A stretch of DNA of 64,000 bases from Roseivivax lentus (GTDB lineage Bacteria > Pseudomonadota > Alphaproteobacteria > Rhodobacterales > Rhodobacteraceae): contig NZ_FTOQ01000002.1 of NCBI RefSeq assembly GCF_900156805.1, forward strand, positions 310,001 through 374,000. Direction: 5' to 3'. Below the pieces are notes generated by a model. The model was given only the letters and a program-made list of their open reading frames with translations, searched no databases and was not told the origin of the DNA. This document shows positions 20,486-25,430 of this stretch, in pieces (position 1 is the stretch's first letter; every line of letters begins with the position of its first letter). Position numbers and translations under genes: made by a program.

Positions 20486-21355
20486 TCAGGCGACGTTTTC
20501 CAACCGCGTCTCGGGCGTCACGCCGAGGGCGAAGCAGACGTCGCGGGTCAGTTCGGGCCGGTTCAGCGTGTAAAAATGCAGCTTGTCCACGCCGCCATCG
20601 ATCAGGTCCGAGCAAAGCTCGGCGCAAAGCGCGGTGGCCAGCAGGTCCTCGCGGCTGTCTCGGGTCGCGGTCTCGAAGGCGTCGATCACCCATTGCGGGA
20701 TCTTCGTGCCGCACTTCTCGGCGAAGCGGCGTGCGCCCTTCCAGTTCTCGATCGGGAAGATGCCGGGCACGATGGGCTTGTCGATGCCCGCCTTCTCGCA
20801 GGCATCGCGGAAGCGGAAGAAGGTCTCGGCCTCGAAGAAGAACTGGGTCAGTGCTTCGTCGGCACCCGCATCGAACTTGCGCTTGAGGTATTCGACATCC
20901 GCCGTTTCGGTCGGCGCCTCGGGATGGGTGTCGGGATAGGCGCCCACGCGGATGGTGAAATCGCCGGTCTCCTTCAGCGCCGAGATCAACTCGCAGCTGT
21001 CGCGGAAGCCGCCCTCGGTCGGCACGAAGCGGTCCTGCCCCTTGGGCGGATCGCCCCGCAGCGCGACGATATCGGTCACACCGACCTCGGCGAAGCCCCG
21101 CGCGATGCCCAGCGTCTCTTCGCGCGTGGCGTTCACGCAGGTCAGGTGCGCGGCGGTGCGCAGGCCGGAATGCTTGTGGATGGTGCCCACGGCTTCGCGG
21201 GTCAATTCGCGGGTGGTGCCGCCCGCGCCGTAGGTGACCGAGACGAAGCGCGGACCGAGCGGCGCAAGCGTCTGCACCGTGTCCCAGAGCCGGAACGAAG
21301 CCTCCAGCGATTGCGGGGGGAAAAATTCGAACGAAACGTCGGGGCGGAGGGTCAT
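20486..21355 (-). CDS. metF: 5,10-methylenetetrahydrofolate reductase
   Basis: 289 residues from ATG 21355, with AAGGA 9 bases upstream. It reduces methylene-THF to methyl-THF with an FAD TIM-barrel for methionine synthesis. The N-terminus VSFEFFPPQS contains the catalytic Glu of the SFEFFPP motif; VTYGAGGTTRE, HLTCVNATREE, DIVALRGDPPKG and FFFEAETFFRF are standard MTHFR blocks. It is divergent from the metR-like regulator across 96 bp that hold a near-consensus MetR site, so it is probably controlled by homocysteine-responsive MetR. No SAM riboswitch is apparent in that short gap. Confidence 0.95.
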   Translation of the reverse strand: MTLRPDVSFEFFPPQSLEASFRLWDTVQTLAPLGPRFVSVTYGAGGTTRELTREAVGTIHKHSGLRTAAHLTCVNATREETLGIARGFAEVGVTDIVALRGDPPKGQDRFVPTEGGFRDSCELISALKETGDFTIRVGAYPDTHPEAPTETADVEYLKRKFDAGADEALTQFFFEAETFFRFRDACEKAGIDKPIVPGIFPIENWKGARRFAEKCGTKIPQWVIDAFETATRDSREDLLATALCAELCSDLIDGGVDKLHFYTLNRPELTRDVCFALGVTPETRLENVA

Positions 21356-21405
21356 CTGTGCGGATCCTTCTTGGCGATGAAGATCTTGTCGCATGTCACG
21401 GACTG

Positions 21406-21418
21406 TGAAACAAACTCA
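21406..21418. promoter_or_regulatory. Candidate MetR operator between metF and metR
   Basis: TGAAACAAACTCA matches the MetR consensus TGAA-N5-TTCA at seven of eight fixed positions (C replaces the first T of TTCA). It lies centrally in the 96-bp divergent spacer, the expected place for a LysR-type regulator that controls both genes. Confidence 0.5.
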
Positions 21419-21451
21419 TAATACTCAAGAACAACATGAACGAGACTGCGA

Positions 21452-22357
21452 ATGCACATCGAATTCCGTCATCTACGGACGATCAAGGCGATCCATGATG
21501 CGGGCGGCGTGGCCCGGGCGGCGGATCAGCTCAACATCACGCAGAGCGCTTTGTCGCATCAGATCAAGGGGCTTGAGGATCAGGCGGGCGTGGAGCTGTT
21601 CGTGCGCCGCTCGAAACCCATGAAACTGTCGCCCGCGGGTCTGCGGCTCTTGCGGCTGGCGGAGCAGATCCTGCCGCAGGTCGAGGCCTTGACGGCGGAA
21701 TTCGAAGGGCTGCGCAGCGGCGTGACCGGGCGCATGCATATCGCCATCGAATGCCATGCCTGTTTCGAATGGCTCTTCCCGGTGCTCGAGGCCTTCCGCA
21801 AGACCTGGCCCGACGTCGACGTGGATATCCGGCCCGGGCTTGCCTTCGATGCGCTGCCGGCGCTTCTGAAGGAGGAGGTGGACCTCGTCGTCTCCTCGGA
21901 TCCGGAGGATCTGCCGGGCGTCACCTTCACCGAATTGTTCGATTACAGCCCGGTCTTCGTTGCCTCCGCGGCGCATCCGCTGGCGCAGAAACCCTTTGTC
22001 ATCGCCGAGGATTTCCGCACCGAGACGCTGATCTCATACCCGGTGGAGCGGTCGCGGCTCGACGTGTTCAGCCAGCTTCTGACGCCCGCCAAGGTGGAGC
22101 CCGCGGCGATCCGGCAGGTGGAACTGACGGCGATGATCCTGATGCTCGTGGCCTCCAATCGCGGGGTGGCGGTGCTGCCGGACTGGGTGGTGCGGGAAGT
22201 GAAATACAGCTCCGACTACATCACGCGGCCGCTGACGGAGACCGGGATCACCCGGCGGCTTTACGCCGCGACCCGCATCGCCGACGAGGACAAGGGATTC
22301 GTCCGGGACCTCATCGCGCTGGCGCGCGTTGAGGCAACGAAGCTGCAGGCGGCGTGA
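21452..22357 (+). CDS. metR: LysR-type regulator, MetR-like
   Basis: 301 residues, full LysR length. The N-terminal winged helix-turn-helix is clear: IKAIHDAGGVARAADQLNITQSALSHQIKGLEDQAGVELFVR (about residues 10-51). The effector domain begins near 90 with GRMHIAIECHACFEWLFPVLEAFRKTWPDVDVDI; the E-C-H-x-C-F-E-W-L segment is characteristic of MetR, the homocysteine-binding activator of methionine genes. Divergence from metF supports this. Autoregulation through the shared operator is expected but not shown. Confidence 0.9.
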   Translation: MHIEFRHLRTIKAIHDAGGVARAADQLNITQSALSHQIKGLEDQAGVELFVRRSKPMKLSPAGLRLLRLAEQILPQVEALTAEFEGLRSGVTGRMHIAIECHACFEWLFPVLEAFRKTWPDVDVDIRPGLAFDALPALLKEEVDLVVSSDPEDLPGVTFTELFDYSPVFVASAAHPLAQKPFVIAEDFRTETLISYPVERSRLDVFSQLLTPAKVEPAAIRQVELTAMILMLVASNRGVAVLPDWVVREVKYSSDYITRPLTETGITRRLYAATRIADEDKGFVRDLIALARVEATKLQAA

Positions 22358-22399: not shown

Positions 22400-22714
22400 A
22401 TGAAGATCTACGGCATCAAGACCTGTGACACCTGTCGCAAGGCGCGCAAGGCGCTGCCCGATGCGGAATTTGTCGATATCCGCGAGGACGCGTTGCCCGG
22501 CGCGGTCCTGACCGCGGCGCTGGAGCGGTTCGGCGACCGTGTTCTGAACACCCGTTCGACCACCTGGCGCGACCTGCCCGAGAGCGAGCGGAAGAAGGAG
22601 CCGGTCTGGCTGATCGGCGCCTATCCCACGCTGATGAAGCGACCGCTGATCGAGGCGGGCGACGAGATGTATCTGGGCTTCGATGCGCAGACGCGCGCGG
22701 CGCTGGGCGTCTGA
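22400..22714 (+). CDS. ArsC/Spx/YffB-family thioredoxin-fold protein
   Basis: 104 residues with a strong AAAGGAG site. The thioredoxin-like fold starts KIYGIKTCDTCRKARKAL, with C-x-x-C at residues 9 and 12, and the family P-loop/KRP region is YPTLMKRPLIE (about 75-85). This is the YffB/Spx branch, in which the role is often glutathione- or thiol-linked rather than arsenate reduction, and no ars genes are nearby. Its stop lies directly against the stop of the convergent bufferin operon. Confidence 0.82.
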   Translation: MKIYGIKTCDTCRKARKALPDAEFVDIREDALPGAVLTAALERFGDRVLNTRSTTWRDLPESERKKEPVWLIGAYPTLMKRPLIEAGDEMYLGFDAQTRAALGV

Positions 22715-23281
22715 TCACTGCGCCGGAACGACGGCGTCGCGCCGCTGCGCGGCGCCCCCGGCCAGGACCCCGTCGACCGACAGGGCACCCGCCCCCTTCA
22801 CCGCGATCACCCCGAGCAGCAGCATCCAGAAAGCACGCTGATCGAGGATGACGCCGTCGGGGACGCGGTCGAACCAGGCGCCCAGCGTCTCGGCATGGGC
22901 GATGCCGCCATGGCCGAAGAGATCCGTCAGGCTTTGCACGACGATGAAGCCCATCATGCCGAGCGCTGCGGGGCGCGCGAGAAGCCCCAGCACCAGAAGC
23001 GCCGGCAGCACGAACTCCGCATAGGTGCCGGCCATGACCACGGCCCAGTGATAGATACCGAACTGGCTGACGTCGTAGCCCACCGCCTCGAAGGCCTTGG
23101 GGAAGATCTGCGCATAGGCGCCGGTGGACAGCGAGAACGGCCCGCCATCGAGCTTCGTCAGCGCGGATTTCCAGAAATAGACCAGCAGCGTCGCAGCGAA
23201 GACGAAGCGTGCCAGAAGCGGCAGCCATCGGTCGTTGCGGTCGGTCGGTGCGAAGAGAAGCGCGCGGAGCATCGGGATCAT
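22715..23281 (-). CDS. bufD: BufD, DoxX-family membrane protein of the bufferin operon
   Basis: 188 residues, last gene of the operon, ATGA-overlapping the stop of bufC. It has the DoxX four-helix layout: WLPLLARFVFAATLLVYFWKSALTKL, IYHWAVVMAGTYAEFVLPALLVLGLLA, AALGMMGFIVVQSLTDLFG and AFWMLLLGVIAVKGAGALSVD. A soluble insert around residues 50-70 and G-H-G-G-I-A-H near 123-130 could face the periplasm. In bufferin operons of other proteobacteria the DoxX gene accompanies the precursor and its enzymes; an electron-transfer or export-linked role has been suggested but is not settled. Confidence 0.8.
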   Translation of the reverse strand: MIPMLRALLFAPTDRNDRWLPLLARFVFAATLLVYFWKSALTKLDGGPFSLSTGAYAQIFPKAFEAVGYDVSQFGIYHWAVVMAGTYAEFVLPALLVLGLLARPAALGMMGFIVVQSLTDLFGHGGIAHAETLGAWFDRVPDGVILDQRAFWMLLLGVIAVKGAGALSVDGVLAGGAAQRRDAVVPAQ

Positions 23282-24021
23282 CCTTTGGGCTGGGGCGTGG
23301 CGAGCGCATTGTGCGACAGAAGCAGGGTCAGCGTGGCCGCGACATCGAAGCCGTCGCCAGCCGCCGCGATCGCATCGCCGAGCGTCGCGTCGGCCCGCAG
23401 GGCGTCGAGAAAGCGCTGGCCGCCGGTCGGCAGGACCACTGGCACGGGGTCGAACTCCGCGCGCAGGATGGCCACATCCTCGGCCTCCCCTGCGGGCTTG
23501 TCGGCGGTCCGGCCCATGGCGTAGCGCCAGATGCTGCAGGCGGGCCAGCGCGACGACACCGTTTCGAGCGAGGGAGCGCGGCTGAGCCGGGTCGCCATGA
23601 GCGTGGCCTCGTCCGGTTGTGCGAGGATCGCGGGGTTGAGCGGGGTGTGATCCGCGGCGTGATAGGAAAGGCGCATGGCCAGGTCGATCCGGGCGACATC
23701 GGCGAGATAAGGCAGGTGGGACAGCTGGTCCTGTTCCGCGAGGAAGGCCGGAAAGCCCGCGCCGTATTGCGACAGGATCGGGGTCCGGGGCTGTTCTTGC
23801 CGGATGAAGGCGCCGGCGACGCGCTGCATGTTGTCGGCGCCGAGAAGCGAGGCGATGGCGGGAAAGCCGGTGATGATGGCCTCCGTGAGGGTGACCGCGA
23901 CGTTGTTGCGATAGACCGCGTACCTTCGGCCAGCGGGGCGCCCCTGGCCGTCGGTCAGGCCCGGCGGCACGGGCAGGCGGGCATCGAGCAGGCCCGCGCG
24001 GAATTGGGCGGCGTGGGTCAT
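23278..24021 (-). CDS. bufC: BufC, DUF2063 partner of the bufferin-modifying enzyme
   Basis: 247 residues from ATG 24021, ATGA-coupled to bufB; the longer frame to 24108 overlaps bufB and looks spurious. The N-terminal half carries the DUF2063 signature: [31 protein letters not shown] (about residues 32-62) and [24 protein letters not shown] (about 70-93). DUF2063 proteins partner DUF692/MNIO enzymes and are thought to bind the precursor peptide. The C-terminal half is poorly conserved. Placement directly after the MNIO gene and before doxX is the canonical bufferin order. Confidence 0.88.
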
Positions 24022-24875
24022 GCGGACACCTCGAGGCGGGACAGCACCTCTTCGGCCCTGCGGGCCTCCTCGGCCAGAACCGGCCAGTCGGGCACGTCGG
24101 TGTCCCATTCGATCAGCACCGGTTTCGGCCCGGTGCGCATGAGCACCGCGTCCAGAAGCGTCCAGACCGGATCGGCGACTGCGCGGCAGTGGCTGTCGAT
24201 GAGCAGCGGCGCGCCGTGATCGTCGGTATCCTCGTCATGCCCGCCGAGATGGATTTCGCCCACCGCGTCGAGCGGAAAGGCGTCGATGTAATCGAGGGGC
24301 GCGAAGCCGAGATTGGTGGCCGACACGAAGACGTTGTTCACGTCGAGCAGCAGACCGCACCCGGTGCGCCGGGTCAGCGCGCGCAGGAAGTCCGGTTCGG
24401 ACAGGGTGGAGGCCTCGAAGGCGAGGTAGGAGGACGGATTCTCGAGCAGCATCTGCCGGCCGAGACGATCCTGCACCTCGTCGATATGGGCCGCGACCCG
24501 GTCCAGCGTCGCCTCGGTATAGGGCAGCGGCAGCAGATCGTTGAGATAGCCGGTGTCGTGGCTCGACCAGGCGAGATGTTCGGAGAAGCTGGCGGGCTGC
24601 ACCCGGTCGATCAGGCGTTTCAGCCGGGCGAGGTGATCCGCATCAAGCGGGCCTTCGCCGCCGATCGACAGGCCGACGCCATGCACCGAGATCGGGAAGC
24701 GTTCGCCGAGGGCGGAGAGCTGCGCCATGGGCCGCCCGCCCGCACCCATGTAGTTCTCGGCGTGGATTTCGACCCAGCGGACCGGGCCGGAATCGGCGGT
24801 CAGCGCGGCGAAATGGCTTGCCTTGAAGCCGACGCCCGGGGCGGCGGGCAGGGTGGAATGGCTGTGATCGAACAT
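24018..24875 (-). CDS. bufB: BufB, MNIO (DUF692) iron oxidase that modifies bufferin
   Basis: 285 residues, the usual DUF692 length; a TIM-barrel multinuclear non-haem iron oxidase related to methanobactin MbnB. Likely iron-ligand motifs are HAEN (38-41), SVHG (63-66), SEH (98-100), LLENP (143-147, Glu145), LDVNN (177-181, Asp178), EIHLGGH (207-213), DSH (227-229) and EWD (256-258). All look intact. In described bufferin systems this enzyme oxidises cysteines of the precursor to thiooxazoles that bind copper. It lies 58 bp after bufA across a perfect hairpin and is ATGA-coupled to bufC. Confidence 0.92.
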
Positions 24876-24903
24876 GATCGGCTCCGGTTGCGGCAGCTTG
24901 GGT

Positions 24904-24925
24904 GGGGCGGGCGGTCACCCGCCCC
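24904..24925 (-). promoter_or_regulatory. Hairpin between bufA and bufB
   Basis: Perfect 8-bp stem GGGGCGGG / CCCGCCCC with a 6-base loop, 8 bases past the bufA stop and without a following T-run. It may protect the bufA message or reduce read-through so that the precursor exceeds its enzymes. The arrangement parallels the hairpin after the binding-protein gene at 7323-7350. Confidence 0.55.
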
Positions 24926-24933
24926 GTGGGCGA

Positions 24934-25233
24934 TCAGCCGGTGGGCAGGTCGCGGTCGAGTTCTTCGAGCGAGCCCTGGCGCGGCGTGCCGTCAGCCATT
25001 TGCGGCAGCTCGATCTCGGTGCAGGTGCCCGCTTCGACGAGCGTCCAGGCATTGCCCTGGTAATCGACGGTCGAGGTGCCCGCGCAGGTCGTGCCGGGAC
25101 CGGCGGCGCAGTCGTTTTCGCCCGCGAGCGAAACGCCGAAGCACTTTTCCTGGGCCTGTGCGTGCACGCCGGTGGCGGCGAAGCTGGCGGCGACGGCGCC
25201 GATCAGGGCGGCGGTCTTCATGGTGGTGGACAT
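24934..25233 (-). CDS. bufA: BufA, bufferin precursor (DUF2282, four-cysteine RiPP)
   Basis: 99 residues from ATG 25233, chosen because GAGG sits 9 bases upstream; in-frame ATGs at 25248 and 25221 lack a site. The N-terminus [23 protein letters not shown] is a Sec signal peptide (cut after residue 25), unusual for a modified peptide and characteristic of bufferins. The mature part holds exactly four Cys (31, 42, 50, 71) in [20 protein letters not shown] and [18 protein letters not shown], the DUF2282 pattern. The tail after residue 72 is acidic and proline-containing. In described Caulobacter examples such proteins are modified by BufB-BufC, exported and sequester copper. First gene of bufABCD; no promoter box could be fixed in the GC-rich 200 bp upstream. 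Confidence 0.9.
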
Positions 25234-25430
25234 CGTGTCGAACCTCATTGGCTGTGTGTCACAAGGCCCGGCAGGTGGGCCGCCGGGTCCCGGTCAGCTT
25301 GGCCTGCGGCACCGGGTCGCGCCACTCACAGGGCCGTGCATCACGCCGCGCTTATCCTTCTGCGCCTGCAAAGGACGGTGGCGTGAACAGGTTTCGCATT
25401 GGTTTTATTGGAGATTTTTTCCGCCTAGGT
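25234..25430. other. Upstream region of the bufferin operon
   Basis: No gene is seen. On the minus strand this should hold the bufA promoter. A GGATAA-like element occurs about 120 bp upstream of the start, but neither a sigma-70 nor an ECF-type pair is convincing. Together with the inverted repeats up to 25564 it makes a 331-bp gene-free gap between bufA and thrS. Confidence 0.35.

Follow-up and report, generated by a model that had tools for sequence, protein, structure and literature searches.

We judge it likely that a Buf1 bufferin operon of Roseivivax lentus is preceded by a clade-specific DNA element of four half-sites that is read by an activator encoded elsewhere. The operon lies on the minus strand, with bufA followed by bufB, bufC and doxX (Table 1), within positions 22715-25233 of the window, i.e., the whole stretch of 64,000 nucleotides analysed here. 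The novelty lies in regulation, namely in the control site; the proteins are those of a standard bufferin cluster.

Table 1. Features of the bufferin locus (positions are those of the window)
Feature	Position	Strand	Remark
Conserved element upstream of bufA, four half-sites in alternating orientation: TAAGCGCGGCGTGATGCACGGCCCTGTGAGTGG	25322..25354	-	Only match in the window
-10 box position, CAAGCT, one base off TANNNT	25296..25301	-	Phase seen in relatives; not exact in the window
bufA, DUF2282 bufferin precursor, 99 aa	24934..25233	-	Pfam PF10048, 83.8 bits (cut-off 22.4)
BufA C-terminal tail, residues 72-99	24937..25020	-	RD-containing tail in 76/81 loci
bufB, MNIO bufferin maturase, 285 aa	24018..24875	-	NCBIfam NF050167 (MNIO_BufB), 376.7 bits (cut-off 310)
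bufC, DUF2063 partner protein, 247 aa	23278..24021	-	Pfam PF09836, 75.3 bits (cut-off 27.2)
doxX, DoxX-family membrane protein, 188 aa	22715..23281	-	Pfam PF07681, 30.9 bits (cut-off 23.6)

A preliminary description of this DNA had called the locus a bufferin-type operon and proposed a profile search of its four proteins as a check. All four exceed the cut-offs of their own Pfam families, including BufB against MbnB_TglH_ChrH (347.5 bits, cut-off 25). In the NCBIfam profile search, BufB passes the cut-off of the bufferin maturases and stays below those for HvfB, ApyH, MbnB and ChrH, and no cut-off is reached by BufA, BufC or DoxX. Throughout the genome, there is one DUF2282 match and one MNIO match. 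The last three genes are joined by ATGA overlaps on the minus strand (bufB/bufC at 24018-24021, with bufC starting at 24021; bufC/doxX at 23278-23281, with doxX starting at 23281), and a 4-base overlap of bufB and bufC is the commonest arrangement among relatives (58 of 79 loci). The gene set bufABC-doxX is not due to chance. Owing to the outcome of the profile and family tests of the four proteins and to the predicted fold of BufC, the operon can be classed as a Buf1 bufferin operon, of a known kind and with an ordinary protein set. The bufferin call thus holds, and the coordinates, gene order and ATGA overlaps given earlier were likewise correct. Counting this genome, a DUF2282 match is present in 6 of the 9 genomes examined from the genus and in 140 of 198 from the family; three genomes of the genus (G001, G003 and G006) have no such match. 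As for the surroundings, the stop codons of doxX and of an ArsC/Spx-like gene on the plus strand abut with zero bases between them (window 22712-22717). Farther along, at 20486-22357, a methylenetetrahydrofolate reductase gene and a LysR-type gene are divergent; the LysR-type protein matches MetR best in NCBIfam, but below the cut-off (252.7 vs 382 bits).

In the MNIO core of BufB, many histidine, aspartate, glutamate and other polar positions are at least 97% conserved across 80 sequences. No solved structure matches BufC in sequence. Its predicted model, which is confident (mean pLDDT 90.3), matches 8hi7_A, 8hci_A and 3dee in Foldseek (E < 0.001), which include TglI in TglHI and NGO1945; the superposition on TglI and NGO1945 is loose, with an rmsd of 6 to 8. 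By its Pfam score and this model, BufC is a DUF2063-RRE partner protein. The TglHI and MbnBC systems are similar insofar as BufB is related in sequence to TglH and MbnB, and the predicted fold of BufC resembles that of TglI (Foldseek E 1.2e-6, TM 0.65). However, their precursors and products differ, and BufB here falls below the MbnB cut-off (62.8 vs 325 bits). Captophorins such as fontiphorin and oxazolin, with precursors of the EGKCG type, are also described as products of an MNIO enzyme and a DUF2063 partner that form thiooxazoles, and in the same source three large groups are distinguished, DUF2282 precursors being one of them (PMC12668002). The precursor here belongs to that DUF2282 group, with four cysteines instead of EGKCG repeats, and BufB remains below the HvfB cut-off (239.3 vs 360 bits). 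A close likeness in gene content is Caulobacter buf1 (CC3254-CC3257), for which an identical succession of DUF2282, DUF692/MNIO, DUF2063 and DoxX genes is reported (PMC3511200).

The precursor BufA carries Cys31, Cys42, Cys50 and Cys71, and 28 residues follow the last cysteine; its length of 99 residues, its four cysteines and this extension had all been described correctly. The four cysteines are invariant across 22 aligned relatives. At the N-terminus, charged, hydrophobic and AxA-like stretches, judged by eye only, make BufA look like a Sec-secreted protein. The tail was compared across 81 loci, comprising the window, five congeners and 75 loci sampled at regular intervals from 112 of the 142 family matches; matches outside the 112 were excluded from the locus list, mainly on account of short contigs. 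The acidic, proline-containing tail had been regarded as unusual, but it proves to be the norm. An RD-containing tail is found in 76 of the 81 loci (window included), a G-[SAT]-[LMI] motif in 75, and a proline after the last cysteine in every one. The median length is 27 residues against 28 in the window, and the median net acidity 4 against 5. The tail was considered as a possible recognition sequence, since precursors of this kind are described as having no known recognition motif (PMC12710340). In five of the 81 loci, however, bufB and bufC are retained although the tail is not of the RD type. The predicted structure of BufA is weak overall (mean pLDDT 67.4), with about 82 over residues 61-90, and was given no weight.

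Some precursors of the family depart from this plan. Four loci (L052, L101, L110 and L170) have tails longer by 15-35 residues, and the ends at L052, L101 and L170 contain many methionines and acidic residues, which are perhaps extra metal ligands. At L117 (G138), a DUF2282-like protein is without the two central cysteines, and bufB, bufC, doxX and thrS were not found in the 10 kb covered. Two tandem bufferin precursors behind one element are found at L159, L199 and L209 (and L116), the first core starting about 190 bases and the second about 630 bases after the element.

The element upstream of bufA has the consensus CTnACGCnnnCGTGAnnCACGGnCnCGTGAnTGG. Its half-sites alternate in orientation in the order TNACG, CGTGA, nCACG and CGTGA, an arrangement as for two dimers of a putative binding protein. 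Counted from the first T of TNACG, the dyads fall at 6.5, 14.0 and 21.5, a spacing of 7.5 bp. The window holds a single match, 100 shuffles hold none, and the window element scores 38.1 with a leave-one-out matrix, compared with a maximum of 7.9 in the Markov null, whose 99% level (6.2) served as threshold. Downstream of the element, TANNNT occurs 20 or 21 bases away in 31 of 56 sites, and any other offset is seen in at most two sites; a consensus scan of the window found no sigma-70-type promoter. The phasing of TANNNT places the element against the -35 position, a usual place for an activator. The operon appears to carry its own conserved, clade-specific DNA control site, and in the literature searched no description of this control element or of a bufferin regulator of this clade was found. 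The half-sites could also form short RNA hairpins, and the element might then act as an RNA leader instead of a DNA site. This is quite improbable: with a phased -10 box after it, the element should lie upstream of the transcript start, and pairing is mostly lost at base 2 of the first half-site, where G, A or C faces a nearly invariant G.

The DNA element stands upstream of bufA in 57 of the 81 loci, all with a score of at least 15.9. The score is below threshold in the other 24, of which 11 come from genomes with NrsF. The remaining 13 belong to the 70 loci whose genomes are not known to have NrsF; L060, L080 and L081 among them resemble shifted forms by eye, and others show nothing. Allowing at most one mismatch, 198 family genomes contain 75 places in 71 genomes, with three sites counted on both strands, and the reversed pattern is absent from every family genome listed. 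The element lies upstream of a DUF2282 match at 71 of the 75 places, the remaining four being in G071, G162, G070 and G199; in G071 (L211) it sits between bufA and bufB, not before bufA. The strict form is present upstream of bufA in 68 of the 140 bufA genomes.

The GTDB collection of 84,980 genomes gave 63 matches to the form that fits the window exactly; records of this genome itself, or of one very close to it, may be absent from the set. A full BufA core follows in 55 matches, the first core being 168-204 bases downstream. Six others precede bufA-like starts or remnants: at L148, L157 and L195, the bufA-like start runs off the end of the sequence retrieved; at L167 and L202, an intact element is followed by a bufA-like start that breaks off; and L176, again with an intact element, looks like a deletion remnant in which the bufA start runs into doxX-like sequence. 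The last two, L156 (Ruminococcus) and L162 (Novispirillum), are unrelated to bufA. Altogether, 61 of the 63 matches are thus associated with bufA, with a start resembling it or with a remnant, and at this level of sequence matching the element is shown to be nearly exclusive to bufA. The titles of 57 matches name Rhodobacteraceae, Paracoccaceae, Rhodobacterales or genera that we take to be roseobacters, and six do not. One record, titled Enemella evansiae (L171), has an element and a BufA equal to those of G010 (L103), and its title is probably wrong.

With thrS as an upstream neighbour in 58 of the 81 loci, the element might belong to that gene or might merely have been inherited with a conserved neighbourhood. 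Such an origin is scarcely credible, as the element occurs without thrS in reach at L038, L056, L057, L079 and L114, loci such as L049, L063 and L106 have thrS without the element, and the downstream -10 box is in phase with the element. By its distribution, the element follows the operon, not thrS.

Control of bufferin genes is described in Caulobacter, where the operon is driven by sigma-F from a GTAACC-N16-CGAA promoter (PMC3511200) and the sigma-F regulon is reported to be copper-induced (PMC8224329); some Buf1 clusters are likewise said to contain sigma and NrsF genes (PMC12452194). Whereas Caulobacter buf1 is under sigma-F and NrsF, this genome (G000) has no PF06532 (NrsF) match anywhere, no GTAAC-N15-18-CG[AT][ACT] string in the 250 bases upstream of the window bufA, and a different element. 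The lack of a sigma/anti-sigma pair, pointed out in the preliminary description, extends to NrsF genome-wide; it is not unusual in this family, as only 29 of 198 family genomes have NrsF. The loci with and without NrsF differ in their promoters: none of the 11 from NrsF genomes has the element and nine have a GTAAC-type string, where NrsF status covers 76 of the 81 loci, the five congeners being outside that search. Two of the other 70 loci (L067 and L077) have a GTAAC-type string beside the element. Among the 140 bufA genomes, 22 have NrsF, and one of these, G163, also carries the element (Fisher p 2.7e-6, not corrected for kinship). Two types of bufferin promoter thus coexist in one bacterial family. 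Alternatively, the operon of R. lentus could be controlled by an ECF sigma factor of the sigma-F type encoded elsewhere, as it is in Caulobacter, where this control was tested (PMC3511200, PMC8224329), and of the 22 bufA genomes having NrsF, 16 have it no more than 6 kb from bufA. With NrsF missing from this genome and no GTAAC-type promoter in the 250 bases upstream, where nine of 11 NrsF loci have one, such control is most improbable here.

We infer instead that the element would be the site of a trans-acting activator encoded elsewhere and standing in for sigma-F. When this genome was searched with the 24-base core at up to three mismatches, the sole perfect match was at bufA, and the sole match with a single mismatch sits inside a long coding frame. 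Clustering of the neighbouring frames of the 81 loci revealed no recurring regulator gene beside the operon; the commonest neighbours are thrS, an ArsC/Spx-like gene and a presumed alpha/beta hydrolase, the latter two names being partly our own reading. One cluster, from 14 loci and about 4.5 kb upstream, starts in an ArsR-like manner by our own reading. Furthermore, ten frames flanking the five element loci without thrS include no regulator by Pfam; four of the ten have no Pfam match and may not be genes. CopR-like regulators (TIGR01387, E 1e-60) are found in 28 of 68 element genomes versus 33 of 130 others (p 0.024, uncorrected). The TIGR01387 cut-off itself is passed by one of 198 genomes, and this genome is below it (242.5 vs 279.2 bits). 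As an explanation of the element distribution, CopR-like regulators were rejected at these frequencies; a CopR-type regulator as the reader of the element is weakly suggested.

Under the proposed mechanism, two dimers of the activator, encoded away from the operon, would bind the element and recruit RNA polymerase, and would fill the role of the Caulobacter sigma-F and NrsF. The later steps are drawn from relatives, for which conversion of the central cysteines to thiooxazoles, linkage of the outer two by a disulphide, Sec export and periplasmic copper binding are described (PMC12452194). By extension, BufB with BufC would oxidise the central Cys42 and Cys50 of BufA to thiooxazoles, Cys31 and Cys71 would form a disulphide, Sec would export the product, and the product would bind excess periplasmic copper, with DoxX as a presumed accessory membrane protein. 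By this analogy, copper buffering is a plausible function here. The operon might also serve another metal or stress, with copper incidental: a related operon is reported to respond to gold as well as copper (PMC5413113), fusions to MerC point to other metals in the case of some bufferins (PMC12452194), and Caulobacter sigma-F genes respond to chromate and cadmium as well (PMC8224329). However, the characterised bufferins are described as copper-binding (PMC12452194) and the Caulobacter sigF mutant as copper-sensitive (PMC8224329), and a role apart from copper is unlikely.

For the roseobacters as a whole, a group of marine bacteria, we lean towards the view that an undescribed transcription factor, encoded off the operon and nearly devoted to this promoter, binds the four half-sites and has replaced sigma-F and NrsF. 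The element offers a direct handle on the regulator and probably on the metal sensor of these bacteria.
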